Assembly (NCBI RefSeq): GCF_000980875.1
Contig: NZ_LAYO01000104.1
Location: forward strand, 1-64,000
Origin: Leucobacter sp. Ag1
Lineage (GTDB): Bacteria > Actinomycetota > Actinomycetes > Actinomycetales > Microbacteriaceae
DNA: 64,000 nt
Reading direction: 5' to 3'
Below the pieces are notes generated by a model. The model saw only the letters and a list, made by a program, of their open reading frames with translations, ran no database searches and was not told where the DNA came from. Positions 39,722 to 54,710 of this stretch are shown in pieces; positions within the stretch are counted from its first letter, which is position 1, and each line of letters begins with the position of its first letter. A program made the position numbers and the translations under genes.

Positions 39722-40576
39722 CTAGTCCGTGAGCGCCGCCAGCGTTGCGCGGGCGGCCTCGACGGCCTCGTCGCTCGCGGCGTACTGGTGCTCGGTCCCG
39801 GGGAACTCCCCCGCGCGCACCTCCGCGGCGTAGGCGGAGAGCGCGGCGGTCATGTCGTCGCCGACGGTGCCGAAGCGCTTCACGAACTTGGCCGTGCGCC
39901 CCTCGGTGATGCCGAGCAGGTCGTGCAGCACGAGCACCTGACCGTCGACGCGACCCGCGCCGATCCCGATGATCGGGATCCGCAGCGCGGAACGCAGCAG
40001 CTCGGTGATCTCGGCCGGAACCGCCTCGATCACCAGGCAGAACGCGCCCGCGGCCTGCACGCCGAGCGCCTCCGCGACGAGCCGCTCGGCGCTCGCGGTG
40101 GTGCGCCCCTGCGCACGGAGCCCGCCGAGCGCGACCGCGGTCTGCGGAGTGAGGCCGATGTGCCCCACGACGGGGATCCCCGCCGCGACGATCGCGCGGA
40201 TCCGACTGAGCCTCGCCTCGGATCCGCCCTCGAGCTTGACCGAGTCGGCGCCCGCCTCCTTCGCGAAGCGGATCGCGGTCTCGACGGCCTGCGCGTCCGA
40301 CACCTCGGTCGATCCGAACGGGACGTCGCACACGATGAAGGCGCGCTCGGTGCCGCGGCGCACGGCCTTCGCGAGCACGAGCATCTCGTCGGTGGTGACC
40401 GAGACGGTGGAGTCGTGTCCGAGCACGACCTGCGCGCCCGAGTCGCCCACCAGCACCATGTCGACGCCGGCGCGCTCGGCGGCACGGGCGCCCGGGAAGT
40501 CGTAGGCCGTGACCATGACGATGGGCTCGCCCGCAGCCTTCTTGGCCTCGAGCTCGGGAATGGTGATGCGGGTCAT
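39722..40576 (-). CDS. panB: 3-methyl-2-oxobutanoate hydroxymethyltransferase
   Basis: Makes ketopantoate from 2-oxoisovalerate and methylene-tetrahydrofolate for pantothenate and CoA. The 284 residues show VMVTAYDFPGARAAERAGVD, VLVGDSGAQVVLGHDSTVSV, VVGHIGLTPQTAVALGG, VIEAVPAEI and IIGIGAGRVDGQVLVLHD. It is the last gene of the six-gene minus-strand operon; its ATG overlaps the panC stop by four bases. Confidence 0.96.
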   Translation of the reverse strand: MTRITIPELEAKKAAGEPIVMVTAYDFPGARAAERAGVDMVLVGDSGAQVVLGHDSTVSVTTDEMLVLAKAVRRGTERAFIVCDVPFGSTEVSDAQAVETAIRFAKEAGADSVKLEGGSEARLSRIRAIVAAGIPVVGHIGLTPQTAVALGGLRAQGRTTASAERLVAEALGVQAAGAFCLVIEAVPAEITELLRSALRIPIIGIGAGRVDGQVLVLHDLLGITEGRTAKFVKRFGTVGDDMTAALSAYAAEVRAGEFPGTEHQYAASDEAVEAARATLAALTD

Positions 40577-41451
40577 ACCGCCCCTCCTTCGGTTCCGGCG
40601 ACCGGCTCGATCACGGCGTTGTCGATGAGGCGCACCTCTCCGACACGGGCCGCGATCGCGCACAGCACGGGTGCGTCCATCGTACGTACGGGCTCGAGCG
40701 ATGCGGGATCCACGAACGCGAGGTACTCGGGTTCGATCCCGGCGTCGGCGAGGACCGCGGCCGCGACCCCGTGCACCGCCTCCGCGGAGGCCTCGCCGCC
40801 GCTCACCGCCGCGGCCGCAGCCGCGAGCGCGCGCGGGATCGCGAGCGCGCGCGTCCGGTCCTCGGCGCTCAGGCGGACGTTGCGGCTCGACCGGGCGAGT
40901 CCGTCGTCGTCTCGCGAGGTCGGGCAGGCGACGATCCGGGTCGGGATCCCGAGGTCGGCGACCATGCGCGTGACGACGAGCACCTGCTGGGCGTCCTTCT
41001 GCCCGAAGTAGGCCGCGTCGGCCCCGACCGCGAGCAGCAGCTTCGCGACGACGGTGGCAACGCCGTCGAAGTGCGCGCCGCCGCGGGCCGCGCCCTCGAG
41101 CGTCTCGGTGAGAGCGCCCGAGAGGTGCACGGTCGTGGCGAAGCCGCTCGGGTACACCTCGGAGGCTTCGGGGGCGAAGATCAGGTCGACGCCGGCGCCC
41201 GCGGCGAGCGCGGCGTCGGCGGCCTCCTGGCGCGGGTAGCCGGAGAGGTCGGCGGCCTCGGTGAACTGGGTCGGGTTCACGAAGATCGACAGCACCACGA
41301 CGTCGTTCTCGGCGCGCGCCGCGCGCACGAGCGACAGGTGTCCCTCGTGGAGCGCGCCCATGGTCGGCACGAAGCCGACCCGGCCGCGCCCGTCGGCCCG
41401 GGCCTCGTCCAGTTCGCGGCGCAGGTCCTGCACGGTGCGGACGATCTTCAT
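40573..41451 (-). CDS. panC: Pantoate-beta-alanine ligase
   Basis: Joins pantoate and beta-alanine with ATP to give pantothenate. The 292 residues carry FVPTMGALHEGHLSLVRAAR (HxGH-type nucleotide motif), VVLSIFVNPTQF, YFGQKDAQQVLVV and SSRNVRLSAEDR. The start overlaps the DUF2520 stop by four bases. Confidence 0.97.
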   Translation of the reverse strand: MKIVRTVQDLRRELDEARADGRGRVGFVPTMGALHEGHLSLVRAARAENDVVVLSIFVNPTQFTEAADLSGYPRQEAADAALAAGAGVDLIFAPEASEVYPSGFATTVHLSGALTETLEGAARGGAHFDGVATVVAKLLLAVGADAAYFGQKDAQQVLVVTRMVADLGIPTRIVACPTSRDDDGLARSSRNVRLSAEDRTRALAIPRALAAAAAAVSGGEASAEAVHGVAAAVLADAGIEPEYLAFVDPASLEPVRTMDAPVLCAIAARVGEVRLIDNAVIEPVAGTEGGAV

Positions 41452-42221
41452 CGGGAGCCTTTCTGCTGGGCGGCGAGCGCGCGCGTCGCCGTGACGAGCG
41501 CGTCGAAGAGGTCGAGGTCGGACGGTGCGCGCTCCGCGACTGCGGCGCGCTGCCGCGCGACCGTCTCGTCGTCTCCGCGCGCGACGGGACCGGTGAGCGC
41601 CGCTGCGGCGCCCTCGCGGGCCCAGTTCGCGAGTGCGGCCTCGGCGAGCGGTGCGAGCGCCTCGCGGGGCACGCCAGCGGTGGCGGCCAGCCGTTCGGCG
41701 AGGCCCTCGACCACGACGAGGAAGTTGGCGGCCACCGAGGCCGCCGCGTGATACGCCGGGCGATCCCGCTCGGCGATCCGGAAGACGCGCAGGCCGAGAC
41801 GCTCGGCGAGCGACTCCGCGGCGGCGCGGGCGTGCTCGTTCGTGCCGTCGATCGCCGCGAAGGCGCCGGCGAAGGCGGTGTCTTCGTCGCTCGTGTCTTC
41901 GCCGTTCGTGCCGGTGTCGCCCGCGGTCGGGCTTCCCGTGACCGTGAGCAGCGGGTGCAGGCTGAAGCCGTCCCGGGCTCCGAGCGCTCCGAGGCCGGTC
42001 GCGCCCGAGAGGTGCCCGAGCAGCGGTCCGGGCCGGATGGCCGCCGCCGCGTCGGCGATGGCGGCGTCGGGCACGGCGAGCAGCACGAGGTCGACGGGCG
42101 AGCCGTCGGGCCCGGTGCCGTCGGCGCCGCGACTCCCGATGGTGACGTCGAGGTCGTCGGCCGCGAGCGCGGCGGCCAGGGCCGCGCTCATGCGGCCCCG
42201 GCCCACGATCTGGATCCGCAC
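41448..42221 (-). CDS. DUF2520 Rossmann-fold protein, possible ketopantoate reductase
   Basis: 257-residue protein with an N-terminal dinucleotide fold (MRIQIVGRGRMSAALAAALA, VDLVLLAVPDAAI) and the DUF2520 C-terminal helical half (YHAAASVAANFLVVVEGLAE). An acidic Thr/Asp/Glu insertion lies near residues 95-115. This family regularly precedes panC in actinobacteria, and no panE is present here, so it may supply the NADPH-dependent ketopantoate reduction. That is inference from position and fold. GTG start. It lies ten bases after murB and overlaps panC. Confidence 0.8.
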   Translation of the reverse strand: MRIQIVGRGRMSAALAAALAADDLDVTIGSRGADGTGPDGSPVDLVLLAVPDAAIADAAAAIRPGPLLGHLSGATGLGALGARDGFSLHPLLTVTGSPTAGDTGTNGEDTSDEDTAFAGAFAAIDGTNEHARAAAESLAERLGLRVFRIAERDRPAYHAAASVAANFLVVVEGLAERLAATAGVPREALAPLAEAALANWAREGAAAALTGPVARGDDETVARQRAAVAERAPSDLDLFDALVTATRALAAQQKGSR

Positions 42222-42231
42222 GGCGCCCGGG

Positions 42232-43401
42232 TTACAGCTCGATGCCGATGAGGTTCGGCTCGGGCACCAGGATCACGCCGAACTCCGACTGCACGAGCTG
42301 GATCACGAAGCGCGCGAGCTGTGCGACGTCCTCGGCCGTGGCCGCTCCGCGGTTGGTGATCGCGAGGGTGTGCTTCTCGGAGATGGACGCGCCGGAGCCC
42401 GGGATCCGGAAGCCCTTGGGGATCCCGGCGTTCTCGATGAGCCAGGCCGCCGAGAGCTTGACCTGCGGGGGCTGCGGGGTCGGCGGCACGCGCAGCGGCA
42501 CGCCGGCCTCGAGCTCCTCGAAAGTGGTCACGGCGGGCGCCGGTTCGAGGCCCTTGACCGGGAACCGGGGCGCGTTCGTCGGCAGGCCGCGGGCGGACCG
42601 CTCGGTGATGATCGGGTTGGTGAAGAACGAGCCTGCGCTCCACGTGTCGTGGTCGGCAGCGTCGAGCACCATGCCCTTGGAGGCGCGGAGCCGCAGCACC
42701 GAACGGCGCAGTTCGCGGATCGACACCCGGTCGCCGACCGTGACGCCGAGCGCGTCGGCGAGCTGCCCGTAGGCGATGGGGGCGCTCAGCGGGTTGGCGG
42801 TGTCTTCGCTCTCGGTGAGCAGCAGGTCGATGGAGAGCACTACGCCCTCGCGGCCGGACTTGATCGAGGAGCTGCGGTAGTCGAGCTCGAGCTCCGCGGC
42901 GGGGATGCGCAGCACCTCACCGATCTCGCGATCGAGGAAGGTGATCGAGTGGAGCACGTCGGAGAGCTCCTGGCCGTAGGCGCCGATGTTCTGCACCGGG
43001 GCCGCACCGGCGAGCCCGGGGATCCCCGAGAGCGCTTCGATTCCGGCCCAGCCGTGCTCGACGCAGGTCTCGACGAGCTCGTCCCAGTTGTGTCCGGCCT
43101 GCACGCGCAGGCGCACCGTTCCGGGTTCGGCGTCGATGCGTTCGATCCCCGTGTTGCGCACGAGCACCGCCGTGCCCTCGAACCCTTCGTCGGCCATGAC
43201 CGTGTTCGAGCCGCCGCCGAGCAGCAGCCACGGGTCGTCGTACTCCCACAGCTGCAGCGCGGCACGCACCAGCTCGTCGGAGCTGCGCGCCTCGATGAGG
43301 TGTTCCGCCGGTCCCCCGACCCGCATGGTGGTCAGCTCGGAGAAGGGCGTGTCGGCCGCGAGGTCGGCGCCCGCGTGCCCGCCCGAGGAGGTCTCGGTCA
43401 C
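42232..43401 (-). CDS. murB: UDP-N-acetylenolpyruvoylglucosamine reductase
   Basis: FAD enzyme that makes UDP-N-acetylmuramate for peptidoglycan. The 389 residues begin with a 20-residue polar tail, then FSELTTMRVGGPAEHLIEA, LLGGGSNTVMADEGFEGTA, NIGAYGQELSDVL and the active-site block SAGSFFTNPII. The catalytic Glu near EKHTLAITNRG completes it. The length and extended C-terminus are normal for actinobacteria. The GTG overlaps the HadB-like stop by four bases. Confidence 0.96.
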   Translation of the reverse strand: MTETSSGGHAGADLAADTPFSELTTMRVGGPAEHLIEARSSDELVRAALQLWEYDDPWLLLGGGSNTVMADEGFEGTAVLVRNTGIERIDAEPGTVRLRVQAGHNWDELVETCVEHGWAGIEALSGIPGLAGAAPVQNIGAYGQELSDVLHSITFLDREIGEVLRIPAAELELDYRSSSIKSGREGVVLSIDLLLTESEDTANPLSAPIAYGQLADALGVTVGDRVSIRELRRSVLRLRASKGMVLDAADHDTWSAGSFFTNPIITERSARGLPTNAPRFPVKGLEPAPAVTTFEELEAGVPLRVPPTPQPPQVKLSAAWLIENAGIPKGFRIPGSGASISEKHTLAITNRGAATAEDVAQLARFVIQLVQSEFGVILVPEPNLIGIEL

Positions 43402-43829
43402 GCGAAGGCCACCAGCAGCTGCGCCTTGCCGAGCACCGTCTGCCCGTCGAAGACCACCTTGAGGTCGAAGCGCGCGGTGCGGGCTTCGGCGTCGAGGGGG
43501 CCGACGGTCGCGGTGACCGTGACCTCGGCGCCGGCTTCGGCATCCACCGGGATGGGGCGGGTGAAGCGCGACTGGTAGTCGACCACGCTGGCCGCGGCGC
43601 CGAGGAGCTCGATCGTGGGCGAAGCGGCCGCGCCCATGGTCAGCATGCCGTGCGCGAGCACGCCGGGCAGACCGACCGACTGCGCGACGTCGTCGCGGTA
43701 GTGGATCGGGTTGAAGTCGCCCGATGCGCCCGCGTAGCGGACGAGGCGGTCGCGGGTGAGCTCGAGCGTCGCCTCGCTGAACACGTCGCCGGTCGCGAGC
43801 GACTCGAAGGTCGGGGTCTGAGCGGTCAT
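43398..43829 (-). CDS. MaoC-like hydratase, HadB-type
   Basis: 143-residue hot-dog-fold protein with the hydratase motif RYAGASGDFNPIHYRDDVAQ (catalytic Asp and His) and LPGVLAHGMLTMGAAA. In mycobacteria HadB pairs with HadA/HadC as the 3-hydroxyacyl-ACP dehydratase of FAS-II. This pair has the same order and sits beside murB. The substrate in a non-mycolate organism is unknown. It overlaps both neighbours by four bases. Confidence 0.85.
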   Translation of the reverse strand: MTAQTPTFESLATGDVFSEATLELTRDRLVRYAGASGDFNPIHYRDDVAQSVGLPGVLAHGMLTMGAAASPTIELLGAAASVVDYQSRFTRPIPVDAEAGAEVTVTATVGPLDAEARTARFDLKVVFDGQTVLGKAQLLVAFA

Positions 43830-44272
43830 TCGTCTCCTCCTCGCACCACGAGCGTCGAGAGCGCGGTCACGACGTGCGCGCCGTCCGCATCGACGATCTC
43901 GCTCGACGCGGTGACCATCGAGTGGCCACCGAGCTGCTTGACCGATGCGACGGTGAGCGTCGCGGTGAGCTCGTCGCCCGCGACGATGGGCCGGGTGTAG
44001 CTGAAGCGCTGGTCGCCGTGCACGACGCGCGAGAAGTCGATCCCCGCCTCGGGGTCGGCGAGCAGCTGCTGCAGCGTGCTCTCCTGCACCACCACCGCGA
44101 AGGTCGGCGGAGCGACCACGTCGGCATAGCCCGCGGCGCGCGCGGCCTCGGGATCGTGATGGATCGAGGCCGAGCTGAGGATGGCACGAGCGAACTCGCG
44201 CACCTTCTCGCGTCCGACCTGGTAGGACTCGGTGGGCGGATACGTGCGCCCCTGAATGTCTGGGTTGACCAC
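43826..44272 (-). CDS. MaoC N-terminal-like dehydratase subunit, HadA/HadC-type
   Basis: 148-residue protein of the FAS1-like dehydratase (UPF0336) group: IQGRTYPPTESYQVGREKVR, VVAPPTFAVVVQE and RVVHGDQRFSYTRPIVAGDE. It lacks the Asp/His motif of its partner, as the HadA/HadC partner subunits do, so it probably forms a heterodimer with the HadB-like protein. The GTG start lies six bases after TAGACT. It is the first gene of the six-gene operon that ends at panB. Confidence 0.85.
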   Translation of the reverse strand: MVNPDIQGRTYPPTESYQVGREKVREFARAILSSASIHHDPEAARAAGYADVVAPPTFAVVVQESTLQQLLADPEAGIDFSRVVHGDQRFSYTRPIVAGDELTATLTVASVKQLGGHSMVTASSEIVDADGAHVVTALSTLVVRGGDE

Positions 44273-44278
44273 GACGCC

Positions 44279-44284
44279 AGTCTA
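44279..44284 (-). promoter_or_regulatory. -10 box (TAGACT) of the hadA-hadB-murB-panC-panB operon
   Basis: TAGACT, six bases (GGCGTC), then GTG at 44272 on the minus strand. This would be the main promoter for the whole six-gene run, since no internal gap exceeds ten bases. Confidence 0.5.
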
Positions 44285-44379
44285 GAAGATGCCGCTGCGC
44301 GAGCCCGGAACATGACGCCCGGGCCCGGCAACTGCGGCTGCGATCGCGTCTGCGACTGCGGCCGCAGCCACGGCAGCGA

Positions 44380-45003
44380 CTACTTCTTGCCGCCGAAGAG
44401 CCCGCCGAGCAGGTCGCCCAGGCCACCGCCGGCCGACTGCCCGCCACCTGATCCACCACCGAGCAGCCCGCCCAGCAGATCGCCCAGGCCACCGCCGGCC
44501 GACTGCCCGCCACCTGATCCACCACCGAGCAGCCCGCCCAGCAGATCGCCGATGCCACCGCCCGAGGTCGGAGCCGATTCCGAGCCCGACTGCTGCTTCG
44601 AGAACGCGCCCGAGAGGAACTGCATGACGATGGGGGCGAGCAGCGGGAGCAGCACGGGAATGAGCTTCGCGATGGTCGAATCGCCGCTGTTCGCGCCGAG
44701 CGCCTGGGCGACCTCGCCCTGCTTGTCGCCGAGGACGTGGTTGACGATCTTGCCGCCGTCCTCCTCGTCGATCGCGTTGAGGTCGATGGTGCCGGACGCG
44801 GGAGCGTGCTTGCCGAGCGCGGCTTCGAGCTTGCCCGCACCCTCAGCGTCCTGCGCGTTGACGGCCATGCCGCCGAGCAGGCCGGGCAGCGCCTGCTGTA
44901 CCGCCGCGCCCATGGTGCTCTCGTCGACGCCGAAACGCTGGGCGAGATCGCCCAGGGGAATCTGCTGCATGAGGTCGTCGAGGTTCACGGAGTTCTGTGC
45001 CAT
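44380..45003 (-). CDS. DUF937 protein with Gly-rich C-terminal tandem repeats
   Basis: 207-residue protein of the YidB/DUF937 type: NLDDLMQQIPLGDLAQRFGV, LPGLLGGMAVNAQDAEGAG, INHVLGDKQGEVAQ-like block (IVNHVLGDKQGEVAQAL) and a short hydrophobic LIPVLLPLLAPIVMQFL. The last 60 residues repeat a 22-residue unit (GGLGDLLGGLLGGGSGGGQ type) nearly three times. The family function is unknown. The ATG follows GAAGGAGCAACCCGA. A TACGCT about 75 bases upstream is a possible -10. The 223-base gap upstream holds nothing else clear. Confidence 0.85.
   Translation of the reverse strand: MAQNSVNLDDLMQQIPLGDLAQRFGVDESTMGAAVQQALPGLLGGMAVNAQDAEGAGKLEAALGKHAPASGTIDLNAIDEEDGGKIVNHVLGDKQGEVAQALGANSGDSTIAKLIPVLLPLLAPIVMQFLSGAFSKQQSGSESAPTSGGGIGDLLGGLLGGGSGGGQSAGGGLGDLLGGLLGGGSGGGQSAGGGLGDLLGGLFGGKK
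44398..44562 (-). repeat. 66-bp direct repeats inside the DUF937 gene
   Basis: Units begin at about 44416, 44482 and 44548 with a period of exactly 66 bases. The first two full copies differ at only a few bases, suggesting recent duplication or gene conversion. The period keeps the reading frame. Confidence 0.85.
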
Positions 45004-45213
45004 TCGGGTTGCTCCTTCGCGCGGTTCGGTGCCGAGTTCTGGAGCCGCTTCTGCAGCGGATCCGCTCGTCTGGAGGCCAGCGTAGCGGCAGGTCACCGCC
45101 ACCGCGACGGATCCCGCGCAGATGCGCTGGGGAGGGCGAAGCACTGTAGCCATCGGCAACGATTCTCCGAGAGGTTTGTCGTGCATATCCAAGGATCGGG
45201 GCCACCCCTCCAA

Positions 45214-45219
45214 TAGGCT
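45214..45219 (+). promoter_or_regulatory. -10 box (TAGGCT) of the biotin carboxylase gene
   Basis: TAGGCT, seven bases, then the ATG at 45227. No Shine-Dalgarno is present before the ATG. Confidence 0.45.
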
Positions 45220-45226
45220 GTTGAGC

Positions 45227-46993
45227 ATGTCGCGCATTCGTAAAGTGCTCATCGCCAACCGCGGCGAGATCGCCGTCCGCATCATCCGCGCCGCGAAAGA
45301 CAGCGGGATCGCCTCGGTCGCGATCTACGCCGATCAGGATCGCGACGCGATGCACGCCCAGCTCGCCGACGAGGCCTACGCGCTGAACGGAACCACCAGC
45401 GCCGAGACCTACCTCGTCATCGACAAGATCCTCGCCGTCGCCCGCCGCTCGGGCGCCGACGCCGTGCACCCCGGCTACGGCTTCCTCGCCGAGAACGCCG
45501 AGTTCGCCCGCTCCGTCATCGACGCAGGGCTGACCTGGATCGGCCCGAGCCCCGACGCCATCGAGCGCCTCGGCGACAAGGTCTCGGCGCGCCACGTGGC
45601 CGAGAAGGTCGGCGCGCCCCTCGCGGCCGGCACCAGCGACCCGGTCGAGAACGCGGACGAGGTGCTCGCCTTCGCCGACGAGGTCGGTCTCCCCATCGCC
45701 ATCAAGGCCGCCTTCGGCGGCGGTGGCCGCGGTCTCAAGGTCGCCTACGAGCGCGACGAGGTCGCCGAGCTGTTCGAGTCGGCCACCCGCGAGGCCGTCG
45801 CCGCGTTCGGCCGCGGCGAGTGCTTCGTCGAGAAGTACCTCGAGAAGCCCCGCCACGTCGAGACCCAGTGCCTCGCCGACGCCCACGGCAACGTGGTGGT
45901 CGTCTCCACCCGCGACTGCTCGCTGCAGCGCCGCCACCAGAAGCTCGTCGAGGAGGCGCCCGCGCCGTTCCTCACCGACGAGCAGATCGAGCAGCTCTAC
46001 TCCTCGTCGAAGGCGATCCTCAAGGAGGTCGGCTACGTGGGCGCCGGCACCTGCGAGTTCCTCGTGGCGAAGGACGGCACGGTCTCGTTCCTCGAGGTCA
46101 ACACCCGCCTCCAGGTCGAGCACTGCGTCTCCGAGGAGGTCACCGGCATCGACCTCGTGCGCGAGCAGTTCCGCATTGCCGAGGGCGGCGTCATCGACTA
46201 CGCCGATCCGATCGCGCACGGCCACTCCTTCGAGTTCCGCCTGAACGGCGAGGATCCGGGCAACGGCTTCCTCCCCGCGCCGGGCCCCGTCGCGCTCTTC
46301 CGTCCGCCGCTCGGCCCGGGCGTCCGCGTCGACACCGGCGTGCAGTCGGGCGACGTCATCTCGGGCTCATTCGACTCGATGCTCGGCAAGCTCATCGTCA
46401 CGGGGTCGACCCGCGAGGAGGCGCTCGAGCGCTCCCGCCGCGCCCTCGACGAGTTCGAGATCCAGGGCCTGCCCACCGTGCTCCCGTTCCACCGCAAGAT
46501 CGTCCGCGACCCGGCGTTCACCGCGCCCGACAGTCGATTCGGTGTCTACACCCTGTGGATCGAGAACGAGTTCCACAACGACATCGAGCCGTGGGAGGGT
46601 GAGGTCGCCCCCGTCGTGCAGGATCCGAAGCGCCAGACCGTGGTGGTCGAGGTCGACGGACGCCGCGTCGAGGTCGTCATGCCCGCCACCCTGATCCCGC
46701 TCGCCGACCAGCAGATCACTCGCGGTCCCGCGCCCAAGCGCGCGAAGGGCGCCGGTGTCTCCGCCGCGACGGGCGACTCGGTCGCGGCCCCCATGCAGGC
46801 AACCGTCGTGAAGCTCGCCGTCGAAGAGGGCCAGCAGGTCGAGGCCGGCGAACTCGTCGTCGTGCTCGAGGCCATGAAGATGGAGCAGGCGATCTACGCG
46901 CACCGCGACGGCGTCGTGCGCGGCATCGACGCACCCCTCGGCCAGACTGTGTCGAACGGCCACGTGCTGCTCAGCATCGTCGACGCCGAGTAA
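45227..46993 (+). CDS. Acyl-CoA carboxylase alpha subunit (biotin carboxylase-BCCP)
   Basis: 588-residue fusion of biotin carboxylase and biotin carboxyl carrier protein, the alpha subunit of actinobacterial acetyl/propionyl-CoA carboxylases. It begins [20 protein letters not shown], has the ATP-grasp loop [35 protein letters not shown], and the biotin site EAMKMEQ (Lys551) in a C-terminal carrier domain. The beta (carboxyltransferase) subunit is not in the window. ATG chosen because it matches the family start. A strong terminator follows. Confidence 0.95.
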
Positions 46994-47002
46994 CCCAGAC
47001 GC

Positions 47003-47051
47003 ACAGCGCAAGGCGCCCGGGCTCCGAGGGAGTCCGGGCGCCTTGTGCTGT
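47003..47051 (+). terminator. Terminator after the biotin carboxylase gene
   Basis: 18-bp stem (47003-47020 with 47034-47051) with one G-T pair and a 13-base loop, ten bases after the stop. Confidence 0.7.
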
Positions 47052-47080
47052 TCACGCACGGATGCGCCGGGCCTCCCCCA

Positions 47081-47145
47081 GGAGATCCGCGTTCCTAAGG
47101 AGAGATCCGGCGGAATCGTCCTTCTCACGCCGGATCACCTTCGGA
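47081..47145. repeat. Dispersed palindromic element, copy B
   Basis: Shares the ordered blocks GGAGATCCGCGTTC, AAGGAG, ATCCGGCGGAAT, GTCCTTCTCACGCCGGAT with copy C (about 40 of the first 44 bases identical) and with copy A at 15235-15299. Its outer stem is degraded compared with C. The remaining 155 bases up to the next gene are unusually A/C-rich and hold no other recognisable feature. Confidence 0.85.
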
Positions 47146-47288
47146 AGCGGACCGAGCGACACGAACGCGGTATCAGGATCAGGTACCACACACGCTCACG
47201 GCCTCAGCCCACCGCATGCCCCACCACATCCACACATGAAGCAAACAGAACACTCACGCTCAACTTGTAACCGCCCACATGTTAGCGA

Positions 47289-47294
47289 TAGCCT
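47289..47294 (+). promoter_or_regulatory. -10 box (TAGCCT) of the two-gene accessory module
   Basis: TAGCCT, six bases (CTCCAC), then the ATG at 47301, with no Shine-Dalgarno. The two accessory genes thus have their own promoter. Confidence 0.5.
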
Positions 47295-47300
47295 CTCCAC

Positions 47301-47765
47301 ATGTCCGATGTGTCACTGCCCGCAGTCCTGCGAACCTTCGAATCCCAGCGAATCGCGTCAAGCCGCAAACTCGCCTCTCTCGAAGCGGACCTCGCAGCAG
47401 AGCAGGCTCTCCAGGAACATCTGGCCCAGGCTATCCAGGCAATTCAGGCGATGACCCGCAATGACGAATCCAACGCGACCCAGGACGCGTCGGCGGCTCC
47501 CCTTCTCCCGCCTGCGCCCGCAGGAGAGGACTTCGATTTCCGCCTCGAAGGCGGCCGGGTGAGATCGGTCGAGATGGTTCGATTCGTCGTGGAGGAATCC
47601 CGCTCCGGTCTGACACGGGAAGAACTCCACCAGGCGTTCTTCGCACGCTGGGGCGAGCAGACCTGGATCAACCCGAGGAACGCGTTGAGCACGGCGATCG
47701 CACGCGCTGTCGAACGCGGCATCGTCCGCGAAGGCAAAGACGGCAAGCTCCGGCGTGCGAAGTGA
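47301..47765 (+). CDS. Coiled-coil and winged-helix protein, unknown
   Basis: 154-residue protein with no named family that I recognise. Residues about 5-52 are a predicted coiled coil (TFESQRIASSRKLASLEADL onward, rich in Gln/Leu/Ala). An acidic, Pro-rich linker follows. Residues about 85-154 look like a winged helix: VEMVRFVVEESRSGLTREEL, NALSTAIARAVERGIV and a final GKDGKLRRAK wing. A DNA-binding or antitoxin-like role is possible. Base composition is lower in GC than the neighbours. Its stop overlaps the GTG of the next gene (GTGA), so the two are coupled. Confidence 0.7.
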   Translation: MSDVSLPAVLRTFESQRIASSRKLASLEADLAAEQALQEHLAQAIQAIQAMTRNDESNATQDASAAPLLPPAPAGEDFDFRLEGGRVRSVEMVRFVVEESRSGLTREELHQAFFARWGEQTWINPRNALSTAIARAVERGIVREGKDGKLRRAK

Positions 47766-48316
47766 CCGACCTCGCGGCTTTTCCAGCCCGAAGCTCGGTG
47801 TTCGTCGATGAGTCAAAAGCCAGGGAGTTCATCCTGGCCGCGAGCTTCACCTCGAGTTCCTCGCACGCGGAGACGAACCAAAAACTGCGCGGACTCGTCC
47901 GCAGAGGTCAACGTCGCATTCATTTCAAGAGCGAATCCGATTCTTCTCGGAAACGCCTACTGTCCGAGATGGCAGCCCTCGACGTCACGGCTCAGGTGTA
48001 CATCGCACCGCATCAGGTTCCAGCCGCGGCACGGACCCAATGCCTCGAACACCTCATCGATGATCTCGTCGATTCGTCGGCATCGCGTCTGATCCTCGAA
48101 CGCGATGAATCCGTCCAGGTTTCCGACCGACGCGTCATACGAGCACGCTTGGATCAGAGGAACTACCGCCGCAGCCTCTCCTACGATCACGCCTCACCGC
48201 ACGAATATCCGCTGCTCTGGGTCAGCGACGCGGTTGCGTGGTGCTGCCAGGCCGGCGGGGATTGGCGCCGCCGCTCCGAACCTCTGATCGGCGGCGTCGT
48301 ACGCCTTGCCGAATAG
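47762..48316 (+). CDS. DUF3800-like predicted nuclease-fold protein
   Basis: 184-residue protein recalling DUF3800/RNase H-like proteins: SSVFVDESKA (Asp16, Glu17), RRIHFKSESDSSRKR (His54, Glu58), RLILERDESVQVSDRR (Glu113, Asp115) and WVSDAVAWCCQAGG (Asp156). The spread of acidic residues over beta-strand-like segments fits a metal-dependent RNase H fold, but activity is a prediction. Such proteins occur as small orphan genes in actinobacteria. It is translationally coupled to the winged-helix gene and stands between element copies B and C. Confidence 0.65.
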   Translation: MTDLAAFPARSSVFVDESKAREFILAASFTSSSSHAETNQKLRGLVRRGQRRIHFKSESDSSRKRLLSEMAALDVTAQVYIAPHQVPAAARTQCLEHLIDDLVDSSASRLILERDESVQVSDRRVIRARLDQRNYRRSLSYDHASPHEYPLLWVSDAVAWCCQAGGDWRRRSEPLIGGVVRLAE

Positions 48317-48444
48317 GCCGGGAAAGAGCGCGAGCCCGGCTCGTCGTACCGTCCGGAAGACTGCCAGGCTCACTTCTTGGGGCTACTGCCCCGCGCTCCT
48401 CCAGAATAGCATCGAACGTTCGTGGGTGCTCGATGCCCCGGCGT

Positions 48445-48513
48445 CCGAAGGAGATCCGCGTTCCGAAGGAGCAATCCGGCGGAATGGTCCTTCTCACGCC
48501 GGATCTCCTTCGG
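48445..48513. repeat. Dispersed palindromic element, copy C
   Basis: The best-preserved accessory-region copy: a 14-bp perfect outer stem (CCGAAGGAGATCCG at 48445-48458 with 48500-48513) and an inner GAAGGA/TCCTTC stem. Same orientation as copy B, 1.37 kb away. It fills the gap between the DUF3800-like gene and the Eis-like gene. Confidence 0.85.
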
Positions 48514-48559
48514 CGGGCCAGGCAGGCCGGGCCTGCCAGGCAGCAGCCGCAGCAGCCGC

Positions 48560-49894
48560 CTAGAACTCCCAGTCGGCACCGGCCGCGATGGGCCACGACC
48601 ACGCGACGGCGGCCGCCGCCAGCATGCGCGGATCCCGCGCCTCGACGCGTCCCGCGAGCGCGAGCGCCGCGAGCGACGTCGAGCCGAGGTGCGCCGCGCC
48701 GAGCGCGTCGATGTCGAGCACGAGGTCAGCAGCGCCACCAGCGCCACCAGCACCAAGAACACCACCAGCACCGACCCGCTCCACGGACGCGGGCCCGAAC
48801 GCCTCCGCCACGGTGACGCGCCAGCGCCCCGCGTTCTCGGGGATCAGCGCGTCGTGCACGTCGAGCACCAGGTCGATGGGTGCCGCGTAGCGGCGGGCGG
48901 CGAGGGCGGCGGGCAGGTCGAGGATCCGCACCCAGACGAGGTCGCGCAGGCGCGGTTCGGCGGCCCGCACGTCGATGAGCAGGTGCATGATCGGGTCGTC
49001 GACGGGCAGCATGTCGACGGCCGCGCGGTTCGTGAGGTCGAGGTCGAGCAGCAGACTCCAGAGCCGGTGCGCCGCAGCGGGGGTCAGGGCGACGATGTCT
49101 CGCACCTCCACCGTGCCGTCGGGTACCGCGCCGTCCCAGTTGACGGATCGCCGGAACCGCGCGTACCCCTGCGCCTGCCCTGACGCGTCGCTCACGACGA
49201 GGAGCCGCAGCGCCTCCTTGCCGCGGTGCAGGATCGCCGGGTCGGCGTCCTGCGCGCGGCGCAGCTCCGGGGTCTCCCAGGTGGCCCATCCCGGGCGACC
49301 GATCCCGGCGGGCACCTGCGCGACCGAGCGGTGCAGCGCGTCGACGAGGTCGCCGTGCGCCTCGGGGTCCCAGGTGAGGAATTCGCCGCGGAGGGCGTCG
49401 GATCCTTCCACCGGGCGCAGCTCGGCGCCCCGCGGCACCGTGAGCGACAGGGTGGGCGCCGCGTGACCGTACCCGAAGCGGCCGTAGATCCCCGCCTCGG
49501 CGGCGTTGAGCACCGACAGCGATTCCCCGCGTCCGCGCGCCTCGGCGAAGTGGTGGGCGATCATCGATCGGAGCAGGCCGCGCCTGCGGTGGCTCGGGTG
49601 CACTCCGACCCAGGTCACCCAACTGCACGCGGTCTCGTCGCCGGGCACCGGGAAGGCGCGCAGGTCGTAGGCGCCGTACATCCCGGCGAGGGCGTTCGCG
49701 GGCGCCAGGGATCCTGCGGGCGGCTCGACGGCTTCGATGCCCCACATCCGTCCCCAGGGCAGCGGGCTGGGCAGCGGCCGCAGCTCGTCGAGGCCGTGCT
49801 CGATGGGGAACGCCCACGTGTCGACCTCGAGCACGTCGTCGAGACGGGCGCGGTCGTCGAGCGGGATGATGCGGTAGCCGTCGGGAAGGGTCAT
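48560..49894 (-). CDS. Eis-like GNAT acetyltransferase
   Basis: 444-residue three-part GNAT of the Eis (enhanced intracellular survival) family, which acetylates amines, including aminoglycosides in mycobacteria. The acetyl-CoA loop is VGVHPSHRRRGLLRSM (about 96-111), the general-acid Tyr is in AEAGIYGRFGYG (Tyr137), and the chain ends in Phe444, whose carboxylate acts as base in Eis. A Gly/Ala-rich insertion (VGAGGVLGAGGAGGAA) lies near residue 395. The physiological acceptor is unknown. The ATG has GGAGG upstream and GATACT ends six bases before it. Confidence 0.88.
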   Translation of the reverse strand: MTLPDGYRIIPLDDRARLDDVLEVDTWAFPIEHGLDELRPLPSPLPWGRMWGIEAVEPPAGSLAPANALAGMYGAYDLRAFPVPGDETACSWVTWVGVHPSHRRRGLLRSMIAHHFAEARGRGESLSVLNAAEAGIYGRFGYGHAAPTLSLTVPRGAELRPVEGSDALRGEFLTWDPEAHGDLVDALHRSVAQVPAGIGRPGWATWETPELRRAQDADPAILHRGKEALRLLVVSDASGQAQGYARFRRSVNWDGAVPDGTVEVRDIVALTPAAAHRLWSLLLDLDLTNRAAVDMLPVDDPIMHLLIDVRAAEPRLRDLVWVRILDLPAALAARRYAAPIDLVLDVHDALIPENAGRWRVTVAEAFGPASVERVGAGGVLGAGGAGGAADLVLDIDALGAAHLGSTSLAALALAGRVEARDPRMLAAAAVAWSWPIAAGADWEF

Positions 49895-49900
49895 GCCTCC

Positions 49901-49906
49901 AGTATC
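49901..49906 (-). promoter_or_regulatory. -10-like box (GATACT) of the Eis-like gene
   Basis: GATACT, six bases (GGAGGC), then ATG at 49894. The intervening GGAGG is too close to be an efficient ribosome binding site, so it may just belong to the spacer. Confidence 0.4.
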
Positions 49907-49917
49907 GCGAGGAAGGC

Positions 49918-50199
49918 TCAGAGGTCGCGAGCCTGCCACCAGCCGAAGGCGATCCAGAACCCGATCGTGTCGACGAGGATCCCGGCGAGGAACAGCCACA
50001 GCTCGGCTCCCGCGATGCTCGGCGCGAGGCCCATCAGGTAGAAGCCGCCGAAGACGAGGATCGCCGATACGACGAACACGGGGATCGTCAGCGGGTGCGC
50101 GCGATCGCTGCGCGGGGCGAAGAGCCCCTCCCCCTCACGGGCGGGCCGGTGGGCCGCGACGGTCTCGGCGGTCTCGGTCGTGGTGCGCTCGTCGGACAC
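49918..50199 (-). CDS. Small two-helix membrane protein
   Basis: 93-residue protein with a 40-residue hydrophilic N-terminus (Thr/Glu/Arg-rich) and two membrane helices (IPVFVVSAILVFGGFYLMGL and LWLFLAGILVDTIGFWIAFG). Not a family I recognise. The GTG start has GGAGG upstream. It is divergent from the OhrR-like regulator across a palindromic operator, which makes it a likely target of that regulator. Confidence 0.7.
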   Translation of the reverse strand: MSDERTTTETAETVAAHRPAREGEGLFAPRSDRAHPLTIPVFVVSAILVFGGFYLMGLAPSIAGAELWLFLAGILVDTIGFWIAFGWWQARDL

Positions 50200-50213
50200 G
50201 GATCCTCCATTCG

Positions 50214-50240
50214 TTCATGCACGAATACTTGGTGCATGAA
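50214..50240. promoter_or_regulatory. MarR/OhrR-type operator
   Basis: Perfect inverted repeat TTCATGCAC (50214-50222) and GTGCATGAA (50232-50240), centre spacing 18 bases. A second overlapping palindrome TTCGT...ACGAA lies at 50210-50225. The site is between divergent genes, 41 bases upstream of the regulator and 15 upstream of the membrane-protein start. Confidence 0.6.
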
Positions 50241-50268
50241 ATAACCATACGCCCAGGAACCGATCCGC

Positions 50269-50274
50269 GATAAT
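50269..50274 (+). promoter_or_regulatory. -10 box (GATAAT) of the OhrR-like gene
   Basis: GATAAT, six bases (CGAGGG), then ATG at 50281; it lies 29 bases past the operator. Confidence 0.5.
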
Positions 50275-50280
50275 CGAGGG

Positions 50281-50754
50281 ATGACCGCAGCGGACCCGCT
50301 CTCCCTCGACCACCAGGTGTGCTTCGCCCTGACCGTCGCCTCGCGCAGCATCGTCTCGGCGTACAAGCCGGTGCTCGACCCCCTGGGGATCACGCACCCG
50401 CAGTACCTGGTGCTGCTCGCCCTCTGGGAGCACGAACGGCTCAGCCTCGGCAGTCTCGCGACGCTCCTGCATCAGGACGCGTCGACGCTGTCCCCGCTCA
50501 TCAAGCGACTGGAGCAGCAGGGGCTGCTCGCGCGGCAGCGATCCGCCGCGGACGAGCGCCGTCTCGACATCACGCTCACCGACGCCGGGCGTGCGCTGCG
50601 CACCCGCGCGCTCGAGGTCCCGCCGCAGATGGCGCAGCGGCTCGACATGACCGAGGACGAGCTGCGCGAGCTCCACGGGTCGATGATCCGCCTCATCGAC
50701 GCGAGCCGCAGCTCGGTCGGCGAGCCGCCGATCGCGGCGAGTCGCGGGGAATAG
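50281..50754 (+). CDS. OhrR-like MarR-family regulator
   Basis: 157-residue MarR winged-helix protein. The N-terminal [20 protein letters not shown] contains Cys14 at the position of the peroxide-sensing Cys15 of OhrR, followed by [16 protein letters not shown]. The recognition helix is around [19 protein letters not shown] response to organic hydroperoxides is likely by family. No ohr peroxidase gene is next to it; the divergent membrane protein and the downstream flavin monooxygenase are the candidate targets. Confidence 0.85.
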
Positions 50755-50782
50755 GCGCCCGAGCGCCCCGGTTGCACTCCGC

Positions 50783-51790
50783 ATGACTGCCGTTCCGCTC
50801 TCCGTGCTCGATCTCGCCGCAATCGAAGAGGACGGAGACATCCGGTCGGCGCTGTCCCACTCGGTCGATCTGGCCTGCGCGGCCGAGGCCGGCGGCTACC
50901 GCCGGGTCTGGTACGCCGAGCACCACAACATGCCCTCGATCGCATCGAGCGCGACCTCGGTGCTCATCGCGCACATCGCGGCGCACACGAGCACGATCCG
51001 CCTGGGTGCCGGCGGGATCATGCTCCCGAACCACTCGCCGCTCGTGATCGCCGAGCAGTTCGGCACCCTCGCCGAACTGCACCCCGGCCGCATCGACCTC
51101 GGCCTCGGGCGCGCGCCGGGCAGCGACGGCGCCACCTTCCGCGCGCTGCGCCGCACGCACTCCGCGTCCGAGAGCTTCCCGAGCGACGTGCTCGAGCTGC
51201 AGGCCTACCTGTCCGACGAGCTGCCGCGCGCGGCCGTCAACGCCTACCCCGGCCGCGGCACGAAGGTGCCGCTCACGGTCCTCGGGTCGAGCATGTTCGG
51301 CGCGAGCCTCGCCGCGCAGCTCGGCCTCCCCTACGCCTTCGCCTCGCACTTCGCACCGCAGGCGCTGACGGGCGCCGTCGCGCACTACCGCGCCACCTAC
51401 CAGCCGAGCGAGGGGCACCCCGAGCCGCACGTGATCGCGGGCGTCAACGTGGTCGCGGCCGAGACCGATGAGGCGGCCGAGGCGCTCTTCGCCCGCGCCG
51501 AGCTCGACCGGGTCCGCCGATTCCTGTCGCGCGGGCGCGAGCGCGAGCTCACGGCCGACGAGGCGGCGCCGCTCCTGGACACTCCCGCCGGGCAGGAGAT
51601 CCGCGGGATGCTGCGCTACACCGCGATCGGCGGACCGAAGCGCGTGCGCGAGGAGCTGGAGGCGTTCGCGAAGCACGCGGACGCCGACGAACTGATCACC
51701 GTGCACGTCGCGCCGACGCGGGCCGAGCAGCTCGTCTCACTGCGGATCGCGGCTCCTGAGGCCACGATCGACGAGGCGTCCGCGGCCTGA
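50783..51790 (+). CDS. LLM-class flavin-dependent monooxygenase (MsnO8 group)
   Basis: 335-residue bacterial luciferase-like oxidoreductase: [55 protein letters not shown] and [17 protein letters not shown]. These match the 'LLM class, MsnO8 family' barrel that uses reduced flavin. The substrate is unknown. It lies 28 bases after the OhrR-like gene in the same direction, so it is probably co-transcribed. No strong ribosome binding site is seen. Confidence 0.9.
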
Positions 51791-51824
51791 CCCGGGCGCC
51801 CGCGGCGCCGCGCCGGGCCGTGAG

Positions 51825-52655
51825 TCAGAACTCCTCGTAGACCGCGGGGTCCTGATCCTTCAAGCGGCCGTCGGAGCGGCCGAGCGCGGTGATCTCGGAG
51901 ACCTCCTCTGCCGAGAGCCCCACATCGGCGGCCCGCAGGTTCTCGGCCTGCCGGCCCGGATCCGCGGACTTCGGGATCGGCACCGCGCCACGGGCGACGT
52001 GCCAGGCCAGGATCGCCTGCACGGGCGAGATGCCATGGGCTGCGGCGATGCGCTGCACCACGGGTTCCGCGGCCATGATCGGCCCACGCCCCACGGGGCT
52101 CCACGCCTCCGTGATGATGCCGCGCTCGCGGTGGTACGCCAGCTGCTCCTCCTGCGGGAAGAACGGGTGCAGCTCGATCTGGTTGACCGACGGCCGCATG
52201 CCCGTCTCGGCCTCGAGCCGTTCGAGGTGCTCGGGCAGGAAATTGGAGACGCCGATGTGCCGCACGAGCCCGCGCTCGCGCGCCTCGATGAGCGCGCGCC
52301 AGGCAGCGACGAAGTCGCCGCTGATCGGGTTCGGCCAGTGGATCAGGTACAGGTCGATACGGTCGAGGCCGGTGCGGAAGACACTCTCCTGGATCGTGCG
52401 GAGCGCGGCGTCGGTCGCGTGATGCCGACCCGGGAGCTTGCTCGTGACGATCAGCTCGTCGCGGTCGACCGCGGCGTCGCGCACCCCGCGCCCCACCGCT
52501 CCCTCGTTCTCGTAGTTGAACGCGGAATCGATGAGGCGGTAGCCCGCCTCGATGCCGCTCCTGACCGCCGCGGCGCCCGCAATGCCGTTCAGGCGGTAGG
52601 TGCCGAAGCCGATCGGGGGAAGCACGAGGCCGTCGTGCGAGCGCTGCTCAGTCAT
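51825..52655 (-). CDS. Aldo/keto reductase (AKR5-like, 2,5-diketogluconate reductase type)
   Basis: 276-residue AKR barrel: LPPIGFGTYRLNG, GYRLIDSAFNYENEGAVGRG (Asp, Tyr), LIVTSKLPGRHH (Lys), IDLYLIHWPNP (His), GVSNFLPEHLERL and AVPIPKSADPGRQAEN. All four catalytic residues are present. The substrate is unknown; such enzymes reduce ketones or sugars with NADPH. The start lies six bases after TAGGCT. It is a single gene, convergent with the monooxygenase. Confidence 0.92.
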   Translation of the reverse strand: MTEQRSHDGLVLPPIGFGTYRLNGIAGAAAVRSGIEAGYRLIDSAFNYENEGAVGRGVRDAAVDRDELIVTSKLPGRHHATDAALRTIQESVFRTGLDRIDLYLIHWPNPISGDFVAAWRALIEARERGLVRHIGVSNFLPEHLERLEAETGMRPSVNQIELHPFFPQEEQLAYHRERGIITEAWSPVGRGPIMAAEPVVQRIAAAHGISPVQAILAWHVARGAVPIPKSADPGRQAENLRAADVGLSAEEVSEITALGRSDGRLKDQDPAVYEEF

Positions 52656-52661
52656 GCGGTC

Positions 52662-52667
52662 AGCCTA
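52662..52667 (-). promoter_or_regulatory. -10 box (TAGGCT) of the AKR5-like gene
   Basis: TAGGCT, six bases (GACCGC), then ATG at 52655 on the minus strand. Confidence 0.5.
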
Positions 52668-52686
52668 CGCCCGGCCGCCGGCCCGA

Positions 52687-53088
52687 CTAGGCCGTCTTGA
52701 CGTGCACGACGCCCTTCATCTCGGGATGGATCGAGCACAGGTACGCGTAGTCGCCGGCCTTGGCGAACCGGTGCGTGTAGCTGCCCTCGCGCTGCAGTTT
52801 GCTCGCGAACTCCCCGTCGGACTGGATCACGTCGTGCTGGTCCGGGCCGATGAACTCCCACCGCACGGCCTGCCCCGGGGCGATCGAGACCTCGGCGGGC
52901 TCGTACGCGTTGTCGACGACCTTCACGGTGACCGCGGCCTGCACGCCGTCGTCGGACGGCACGAACTTCGGCTTCGCCGGGGTGCAGCCGACGAGCGCCG
53001 CGGCGCCCACGCCGACGAGCCCGAGCGCGCCGCCGAGCAACGCGCGTCGACCGAGGACCGCGTTCGCCGCGGGACGGCGAGTGCTCAC
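52687..53088 (-). CDS. Tat-exported lipoprotein cupredoxin
   Basis: 133-residue type-1 copper protein. The signal has twin arginines (LGRRALLGG, Arg14-Arg15), a hydrophobic core and a lipobox ending in Cys35 (ALVGC), so it should be exported folded by Tat and lipid-anchored. The cupredoxin fold keeps copper ligands His85 (DQHDVI), Cys118 and His121 (YLCSIHPEM) and Met124. It probably carries electrons at the outer membrane face. The GTG start lies eight bases after the lpdA stop, so the two form an operon. Confidence 0.9.
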   Translation of the reverse strand: MSTRRPAANAVLGRRALLGGALGLVGVGAAALVGCTPAKPKFVPSDDGVQAAVTVKVVDNAYEPAEVSIAPGQAVRWEFIGPDQHDVIQSDGEFASKLQREGSYTHRFAKAGDYAYLCSIHPEMKGVVHVKTA

Positions 53089-53096
53089 GGCGCCGC

Positions 53097-54536
53097 TCAC
53101 CGCTGGTGCAGGGCGCGGGCCGCGTCGGTGATCGCACCCGTCATCGACGGGTAGACCGTGAACGCCGAGGCGACCTGGTCGACCGTGAGCCGGTGCTCGA
53201 CGGCGAGCGCGAGGCCGAAGATGAGCTCGCTCGCGCGGTGGGACACGATGACGCCGCCGATGACGGTGCCGGAGGCCTGCCAGGCGAACAGCTTCACGAA
53301 GCCGTCGGTGAAGCCGATCATCTTCGCGCGCGGGTTCACGCTGAGCGGGATCGTGTGCGAGATGGCCTTGGCCATGTCGCTCGCGTCGGCGAGGCTGTGC
53401 TCGTTCCAGCCGACGGTCGCGATCTCGGGGTAGGTGAAGACGTTCGACGAGACGTTGCGCAGATCGATGGGGCGCACGAAGTCGCCGAGCGCGTGCATGA
53501 TCGCAGTGCGCCCCTGCATCGCCGCGACCGACGCCAGCGGGTAGAAGTCGGTGCAGTCGCCGGCCGCGTAGATCGACGGGATCGAGGTGCGCGCGACCTT
53601 GTTGACGTGGATGTGCCCGCTCTCGGTCAGGCCGACACCGGCCTCCTCGAGGCCGAGCCCCGCGGTGTTGGGGATCGAGCCGACGGCCATGAGGCAGTGC
53701 GACGCTTCGATGGTGCGGCCGTCGGAGAGCTCGACGAGCACGCCGTTCTCGGTGCGGGTGACGGAGTCGGCGCGCGACTTCGACATGACGTTCATGCCGA
53801 GGCGCTTGAATTCGCGCTCGATCACGGCCGCCGCGTCCTTGTCCTCGCCGGGGAGCACCTGCTCGCGGCTCGACACGAGGGTGACCTCGGCGCCGAGGGT
53901 GCGGTAGGCGTTCGCGAACTCGGCACCGGTGACGCCGGAGCCGACGACCACGAGATGCTCGGGGATCGCGGGCAGGTCGTACAGCTGCTTCCAGGTGAGG
54001 ATCCGCTCGCCGTCGGGCTTCGCGCTGTCGAGCTCGCGCGGGCTCGCGCCGACCGAGACGACGATGGTGTCGGCCTCGATGCGGTCGAAGTCGGTGCCCT
54101 CGGCGCCCGCCGTGGTCGCCACGACCACGGCGTTGGGGCCGTCGAGGCGGCCCTCGCCGTGCACGATGCGCACGCCGGCCTGCTCGAGGGTGCGGTGCAT
54201 GTCGTCGGACTGCGCCGCCGCCATGGCGAGCAGGCGCTTGTTGACGGCCTTGAGGTTGACGGCGATCTCGGGGCGCACGGGCTTGCCGTCGCCGCCGGGC
54301 ACGAACGCCTGCACGCCGAGCTTGCCCGAGTCGCGCACGGCCTGCACGCCGCCGGCCGTTCCGATGAGGCTCTTGGAGGGGACCACGTCGGTGAGCACGG
54401 CGGCCCCGCCGACGCCGACTCTCTCGATGAGGGTCACTTCGGCCCCCAGCTGGGCGCCCGCGAGCGCCGCCTCGTATCCGCCGGGACCGCCGCCCAGCAC
54501 CGCGATCCGGTGCTTCCGATCGAACGCATTCGCCAT
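53097..54536 (-). CDS. lpdA: NAD(P)H-quinone dehydrogenase, LpdA type
   Basis: 479-residue flavoprotein of the lipoamide-dehydrogenase fold: IAVLGGGPGGYEAALAGAQL (FAD), VVVGSGVTGAEFANAYRTLG (NAD), YAAGDCTDFYPLASVAAMQG. The redox-active Cys pair of true lipoamide dehydrogenases is missing; the position reads GVGGAAVLTDVVPSKSLIG. This is the pattern of mycobacterial LpdA (Rv3303c), a quinone reductase. Pairing with a cupredoxin suggests an electron-transfer role. The ATG lies seven bases after TAGACT. Confidence 0.9.
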   Translation of the reverse strand: MANAFDRKHRIAVLGGGPGGYEAALAGAQLGAEVTLIERVGVGGAAVLTDVVPSKSLIGTAGGVQAVRDSGKLGVQAFVPGGDGKPVRPEIAVNLKAVNKRLLAMAAAQSDDMHRTLEQAGVRIVHGEGRLDGPNAVVVATTAGAEGTDFDRIEADTIVVSVGASPRELDSAKPDGERILTWKQLYDLPAIPEHLVVVGSGVTGAEFANAYRTLGAEVTLVSSREQVLPGEDKDAAAVIEREFKRLGMNVMSKSRADSVTRTENGVLVELSDGRTIEASHCLMAVGSIPNTAGLGLEEAGVGLTESGHIHVNKVARTSIPSIYAAGDCTDFYPLASVAAMQGRTAIMHALGDFVRPIDLRNVSSNVFTYPEIATVGWNEHSLADASDMAKAISHTIPLSVNPRAKMIGFTDGFVKLFAWQASGTVIGGVIVSHRASELIFGLALAVEHRLTVDQVASAFTVYPSMTGAITDAARALHQR

Positions 54537-54543
54537 GCCTCAC

Positions 54544-54549
54544 AGTCTA
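54544..54549 (-). promoter_or_regulatory. -10 box (TAGACT) of the lpdA-cupredoxin operon
   Basis: TAGACT, seven bases (GTGAGGC), then ATG at 54536 on the minus strand. Confidence 0.5.
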
Positions 54550-54710
54550 TGCGCCCGCGCGCCCCTCCGGCTGTCCGGGATGCCGGGCGACCGGGGCCGT
54601 CATCTTCACCGTCGGGGCATACCTCTCCGCGTAGACTCGGACACCGAATCGCACCGGGGGGACAGCTCGGAGCGTGGCCTGCGCACCGCTGCCCGAAGGA
54701 GACGTCACCG

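Follow-up and report, generated by a model that had tools for sequence, protein, structure and literature searches.

In the 64,000-nucleotide stretch of Leucobacter sp. Ag1 DNA analysed here (the window), two short coupled genes lie between palindromic repeats, and a preliminary description had read them as a regulator followed by a nuclease-like effector, in the manner of a toxin–antitoxin (TA) or defence module. Are these two genes in fact partners, and if they are not, with what is the nuclease-like gene paired? The layout itself was confirmed. The two ORFs overlap by GTGA at 47762-47765, the GC content of the gene pair is lower than that of its surroundings (0.60-0.64 in 500-base blocks from 47000 to 48499, as against 0.66-0.77 elsewhere in 40000-56000), and repeat copies B and C have the same orientation and are 92% identical over 65 nt (Table 1). 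A pattern made from the 32-nt palindrome core, allowing up to 3 mismatches, occurs 2 times in 64 kb where 0.00 are expected, and in the organism's own genome 10 of the 13 listed places, copies B and C counted in, resemble the element by eye; the palindromes are dispersed intergenic repeats of this genome. A third, related palindrome, a near-perfect inverted pair, is found at 15235-15299 of the window.

Table 1. Features of the locus, in window coordinates.
Feature	Position	Strand	Basis or remark
Palindromic repeat copy B	47080-47144	.	Pairwise identity, pattern scan, genome repeats
Gene 1 ORF (rare small protein, 154 aa)	47301-47765	+	Overlaps nuclease gene; accessory, not conserved partner
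Gene 2 ORF (divergent DUF3800 protein, 184 aa)	47762-48316	+	Predicted RNase HII-like fold; candidate toxin/effector nuclease
Structured RNA element	48322-48405	-	Model R1 70.3 bits, E 7.7e-17; covariation; strand evidence
Predicted -10 box of RNA promoter, TATTCT	48403-48408	-	Position and sequence; offset conserved in homologues
Weak candidate -35 box of RNA promoter, TCGAGC	48428-48433	-	Spacing 19; clearer in homologues such as L048, L074 and L162
Palindromic repeat copy C	48449-48513	.	Pairwise identity, pattern scan, genome repeats

In the sister species G020, the end of the biotin-carboxylase gene (94.9% identical) and the acetyltransferase gene on the other side (90.1% identical) have only a short intergenic stretch between them, and the module is absent. 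Because the same spot holds nothing but this stretch, the segment is, by this comparison, recent in its own lineage. The expectation that a relative would lack the segment cleanly, with one element copy left behind, held in part: the segment is missing from G020, but the empty site carries a different palindrome, of which only the outer arms look alike. A GC-rich inverted repeat that follows the biotin-carboxylase gene (window ~47009-47051) and is common to G020 is, by eye, a probable terminator. When close relatives of the whole locus were sought, 0 of 47 stretches from genome contigs were confirmed, and in viral contigs the only close relative was that of phage Gaia.

Gene 1, whose product had been read as a coiled coil plus winged helix, has none of the distribution expected of a conserved partner. 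Family-model searches with its product gave no match above the cut-off, no plasmid relatives were found at E<=0.1, and the gene occurs in 2 of 199 genomes of the family, its own genome among them. A survey of neighbourhoods at six fetched loci with nuclease homologues (from plasmids and phage Gaia), a check named in the preliminary description for conserved pairing, revealed upstream neighbours that differ from locus to locus. The winged-helix gene is ruled out as the conserved partner by these rare occurrences, the lack of plasmid relatives and the differing neighbours. The sole relative of gene 1, in genome G896 (locus L113), has no convincing DUF3800 match within 3.3 kb (best tblastn E 0.75); a recombinase-like ORF, judged by eye, lies nearby. 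One might still suppose, from the GTGA overlap and the flanking repeats, that the winged-helix regulator and the nuclease form a protein–protein TA pair mobilised by the palindromes; with gene 1 not conserved alongside gene 2, and the palindromes being dispersed repeats, we regard this as extremely improbable.

The product of gene 2 matches Pfam DUF3800 (PF12686) over nearly its full length at 20.2 bits (E 0.001), under the gathering cut-off of 21, and 4 of 41 homologues match that family at E<=0.01; judged by these scores, the protein is a divergent DUF3800 relative that falls below the curated Pfam line. The DUF3800-like nuclease fold suggested earlier gained support from structure prediction as well, which returned a fold of the RNase H type in which acidic residues are conserved. 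Among the residues that had been singled out, D16, E17, H54 and E58 do not vary across 34 homologues, and D156 hardly varies. E113 is mostly E and sometimes D, and D115 varies. In a set of 41 homologues, H54 and E58 are again invariant, and D16, E17 and D156 are conserved in at least 90%. Two residues missing from the original list, D122 and R91, are invariant in both sets. (Note that both alignments, of 34 and 41 rows, leave out several loci, including L053, which has a stop in frame, and the decayed copies.) The model points to a nuclease-like protein, with an RNase HII fold of the metal type, in a divergent branch of DUF3800. A sequence search of the PDB with this protein gave an unrelated best match (E 0.037), and searches of PADLOC and NCBIfam found no match at E<=1, toxins of the ToxN/AbiQ/CptN/TenpN kind included. 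Relatives of the protein are present on 97 plasmid records, and among 36 other genomes of the genus a DUF3800 match was found only in G028, at 30% identity. To call the module TA- or defence-like was therefore a fair guess with respect to the RNase H-type fold, its occurrence on mobile DNA elsewhere and its absence from the G020 spot, but not with respect to gene 1 as the partner.

With relatives placed side by side, the DNA just 3' of the gene 2 stop codon proved far better conserved than the protein. This DNA contains a structured RNA, which lies within the coordinates of the preliminary description and had been missed there. We drew its structure by hand on 23 aligned copies, and this structure underlies model R1. 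It has the architecture of a three-way junction, with a closing stem (P1), a long hairpin (P2) with an inner helix (P2b), and a further hairpin (P3); the predicted transcript runs on the minus strand from ~48396 down to ~48322, roughly 75 nt. In the 23 copies, 84% of cells are paired, as compared with 74% after shuffling; changes on both sides are seen in 12 of 22 pairs (5.8 +- 1.4 when shuffled), the covariation score is 0.230 (0.089 when shuffled), and pairing falls to 30-41% when the partners are slid by 1-3 columns. Stem P2 is paired in 99.4% of cells and P1 is weak (68%), and the loops and joints are conserved in primary sequence. (Some rows of the MAFFT alignment A1 are misplaced, and RNAalifold gave only 10 pairs there.)

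Model R1 finds one copy in the organism's own genome, that of the window, and 3 of 37 genomes have a match, all 3 together with the protein. Rfam 15 gave 0 matches in the window at E<=1; at E<=10 there were six, which score far under the gathering cut-offs and which we attribute to chance. Across 27 homologous loci no Rfam 15 model matches the RNA, the only matches being unrelated or weak and away from it. One of the unrelated structures, on a conjugative Arthrobacter plasmid (L020, 593-788), is a c-di-AMP riboswitch that scores 63.4 bits and precedes an NlpC/P60 gene. In G028, of the same genus, the 30%-identical DUF3800 gene (L006) is followed by a hairpin pair that resembles the RNA by eye; model R1 does not detect it at E<=1, and it may be a diverged variant. 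Similar hairpins were seen, again by eye only, at L044 and L161 as well, and none was recognisable at L078.

To measure linkage we used 394 genomes of the class and scored an RNA as linked if it lay within 700 nt of a protein match at a strict cut-off. The protein is present in 52 of these genomes, the RNA in 46 and both in 39 (Fisher p 2e-35). Protein matches with E<1e-20 have the RNA in 33 of 33 cases, and those with E<1e-12 in 37 of 42; in the remaining 5 the RNA is present at 19.8-32.8 bits, 3 times upstream of the gene, such that the nine matches between 1e-20 and 1e-12 comprise 4 with a strict RNA and 5 with lower-scoring ones. Weaker protein matches, some of them fragments of a single gene, have the RNA in 17 of 51 cases in the strict search. 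Where regions were fetched for matches that lacked a strict RNA, 6 of 7 contained a lower-scoring copy, the exception being G763 (L161). By these comparisons, the conserved partner of the nuclease-like gene is the structured RNA, and the proposed pairing of genes 1 and 2 as regulator and effector gives way to a pairing of gene 2 with the RNA. The arrangement is also regular: the orientation of RNA to gene is the same in 55 of 55 adjacent pairs, and in most loci the RNA follows the stop codon. At L074/L145, L075 and L146 it lies upstream of the gene and would be transcribed away from it. Second copies of the RNA occur in the same orientation at L144 and L160 and in the opposite orientation at L143, a locus outside the 55-pair set.

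An A.C mismatch on one strand is a G.U pair on the other, and counts of the two on the gene strand (7:0 in P2, 21:4 in P3 and 21:10 in P1) therefore point to the strand opposite the gene; the inner helix P2b, with 15 A.C as against 17 U.G, does not, and slightly favours the gene strand, against the antisense reading. The antisense fold is the more stable one in 79 of 87 copies (mean -38.3 vs -32.9 kcal/mol). On the same strand, the best promoter-like site upstream of the RNA has its -10 box at one offset in 60 of 87 copies, and matches of at least 9/12 number 16 of 87 on the antisense strand, as compared with 1 on the sense strand and 1.5 after shuffling. (Promoter and consensus counts leave out five chance-like model matches and L038, at 16.8 bits; pair counts leave out the five only.) At L074, where the RNA is upstream of the gene, the promoter match is TTGATA-17-TATCAT. 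The weakness of the window's own -35 box counts against an antitoxin role for the RNA. These data suggest that the RNA is likely read from the strand opposite the gene, convergently with it, from its own sigma-70-like promoter.

Two alternatives are bound up with strand and position. The element might be a feature of the DNA or of the sense strand, such as a 3' untranslated structure, a terminator or a recombination site, with no separate RNA; its place after the stop codon in most loci, the single orientation of the 55 adjacent pairs and the P2b wobble pairs would agree with this. We consider it improbable nevertheless, given the conserved sequence of loops and joints, the predicted promoter at a fixed offset on the other strand, the loci at which the gene is missing or the RNA upstream, and the oppositely oriented second copy at L143. 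Slightly more improbable still is that the RNA is a type I-like antisense regulator that base pairs with the mRNA of the gene, in its 3' untranslated region. Convergent transcription would indeed make the RNA fully complementary to the mRNA 3' end, but at the loci with an upstream RNA it would be transcribed away from the gene, orphan copies have no adjacent target, and pairing alone would not demand the degree of conservation seen in structure and loops.

Such orphan copies are found on chromosomes, on a plasmid and in phages. In the class set, 19 of 74 RNA places have no protein match within 700 nt; a profile search of the stretches examined revealed gene remnants at 5 of these (L120, L125, L147, L156 and L158), intact diverged genes at 2 (L153 and L155) and nothing at 12. 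The RNA is intact at places that lack an intact protein gene, and in several the promoter is intact as well. At L120 and L147, the remnants of the DUF3800 gene, joined over a gap inside it, stand beside high-scoring RNAs (86.2 and 81.8 bits). Plasmid pTY66_01 carries the RNA with no DUF3800 gene in the 5 kb examined. Among phages, blast with two RNA copies detected the RNA in Gordonia phages Belphegor, Verity, Delrey21, DoctorFroggo and Zipp and in Mycobacterium phage Nebkiss, besides Gaia; two further RNA-query blast searches of phages found nothing, and the RNA pattern CACTTC...TGCCC had 0 matches in viral contigs. A search of the phage collection with the gene 2 protein gave Gaia as its single match at E<=0.01. 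Model R1 confirmed two of the Gordonia phage loci (48.6 and 41.6 bits), in both of which the RNA lies between a tail-assembly-chaperone gene and a gene annotated as minor capsid or tail completion protein. A 134-nt block comprising the RNA, the promoter and the last bases of the gene is identical in Gaia and Nebkiss; Gaia has the gene, and at that place Nebkiss is without the rest of it. In Nebkiss the RNA is overlapped, on its transcribed strand, by gene 132 (L187, 1997-2275), whose annotation is that of a DNA binding domain protein; the gene call may be spurious, or else the sequence is used twice.

A core pattern occurs in 16 viral contigs, and in 11 of them the RNA scores at least 30 bits; the protein accompanies it in 2, is missing from the stretch examined in 8, and 1 contig is cut at the stretch end. 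At viral loci that have the RNA but no adjacent DUF3800 gene, its strand is by eye in line with the neighbouring genes in 9 of 11 cases (Belphegor, Verity, Nebkiss, L171, L174, L179, L182, L183 and L185). In the phage-like contigs L172 and L181, which have shorter matches, the RNA would run against its neighbours, and this counts against the antitoxin reading.

The comparisons show that gene and RNA are paired, how the RNA is folded and on which strand it likely lies, that the protein has a nuclease fold, that the module is distributed on mobile DNA, and that chromosomes, a plasmid and phages carry copies of the RNA alone. The reading that we favour, at a probability of roughly 0.55, is that of a two-part protein–RNA module in which a nuclease of RNase HII fold is accompanied by a convergent RNA of ~75 nt that acts like an RNA antitoxin. 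The RNA would be made in excess, bind the protein and block it; were the supply of RNA to stop, upon takeover of transcription by a phage or loss of a plasmid, the protein would be freed and nucleic acid cut. RNA-only copies could then be relics, harmless once the toxin gene is gone, and those in phages might be decoys that silence the host's module. We infer every one of these steps: binding, inhibition, release and decoy action. Strong protein matches are never without the RNA, whereas the RNA is also found where the protein has decayed or is missing; this asymmetry is what a toxin in need of its antitoxin predicts, and therefore supports the antitoxin reading. A point against it is that most loci have a single copy of the RNA, whereas type III antitoxins consist of repeats.

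Alternatively, the RNA could be a working cofactor or guide of the RNase H-fold nuclease, which would be RNA-guided or RNA-activated in the broad style of TnpB/IscB, in place of an inhibitor. An RNA of this type would give much of the same pattern, but no obvious variable, guide-like stretch is present at its 5' side, between promoter and structured core, and the persistence of the RNA beside decayed protein genes and alone in phages is less easily explained; a short guide at the 3' side is conceivable, and we hold a cofactor or guide to be unlikely, though by no means negligible. Taken further, the antitoxin reading would make the module a new protein–RNA TA or defence class, widespread on plasmids of actinobacteria. 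One convergent structured RNA would restrain an RNase HII-like toxin, and Gordonia and Mycobacterium phages would counter the module with the RNA alone, placed among their own gene clusters, as a natural RNA anti-defence. This larger claim we put forward as a tentative possibility.

Candidate RNAs associated with DUF3800 reportedly stem from the work of Weinberg et al. in 2017, and we know of no function for the DUF3800 proteins and linked RNAs that have been listed for years. The present branch provides a test case of only 0.75 kb in which the RNA's strand, promoter and structure are clear and the nuclease model is confident. Natural experiments are at hand as well: some loci have lost the gene and kept the RNA, and sister phages differ in whether they have the gene. 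Should the RNA prove to be an antitoxin, what a whole set of orphan RNAs does could be tested directly, and the RNA-only copies of phages would be ready candidates for RNA counter-defence elements.

A published study links DUF3800 genes to other candidate RNAs (PMC10910872), and the Rfam names DUF3800-I (RF02969) and DUF3800-IX (RF02968) appear in another (PMC11701678); the passages on DUF3800 that were consulted hold no description of the present RNA. As in those cases, a structured RNA here adjoins a DUF3800-type gene. Unlike them, it matches no Rfam 15 model (in the window and 27 loci), and most members of its protein branch go undetected by Pfam (4 of 41 match), which may be why the RNA was overlooked. 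The predicted fold of the gene 2 protein is that of RNase HII and the catalytic subunit of RNase H2, to which it is 11-16% identical; D16, E17, E/D113, D122 and D156, which are conserved to differing degrees, may include counterparts of the four-residue acidic site of RNase HII. It differs from these enzymes in the additional invariant His54 and Glu58 and in being always or nearly always linked to an RNA.

Passages on AbiF/RCd22 (Rfam abiF motif RF03085) report a noncoding RNA motif that was shown to be an RNA antitoxin, neutralising its toxin in cis and in trans (PMC12373285). With this system and with type III TA systems (ToxIN, CptIN), the present module shares a nuclease-type or toxic protein, a linked structured noncoding RNA and mobility. 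In those systems, however, the RNA consists of upstream repeats that share the toxin's transcript, and the fold of the present protein is RNase HII-like. The present RNA is mostly a single copy, mostly 3' of the gene, on the opposite strand and with its own predicted promoter; the tandem-repeat RNA upstream in a shared transcript that marks type III systems is lacking, and the protein is not a toxin of the ToxN/AbiQ/CptN/TenpN kind. For ToxIN, one report describes a phage pseudo-ToxI RNA that mimics the antitoxin RNA of the host (PMC3475682). The match in our case is one of structural homology only; like the carriers of pseudo-ToxI, phages here bear an RNA that resembles the candidate antitoxin RNA of the host, with the toxin absent.
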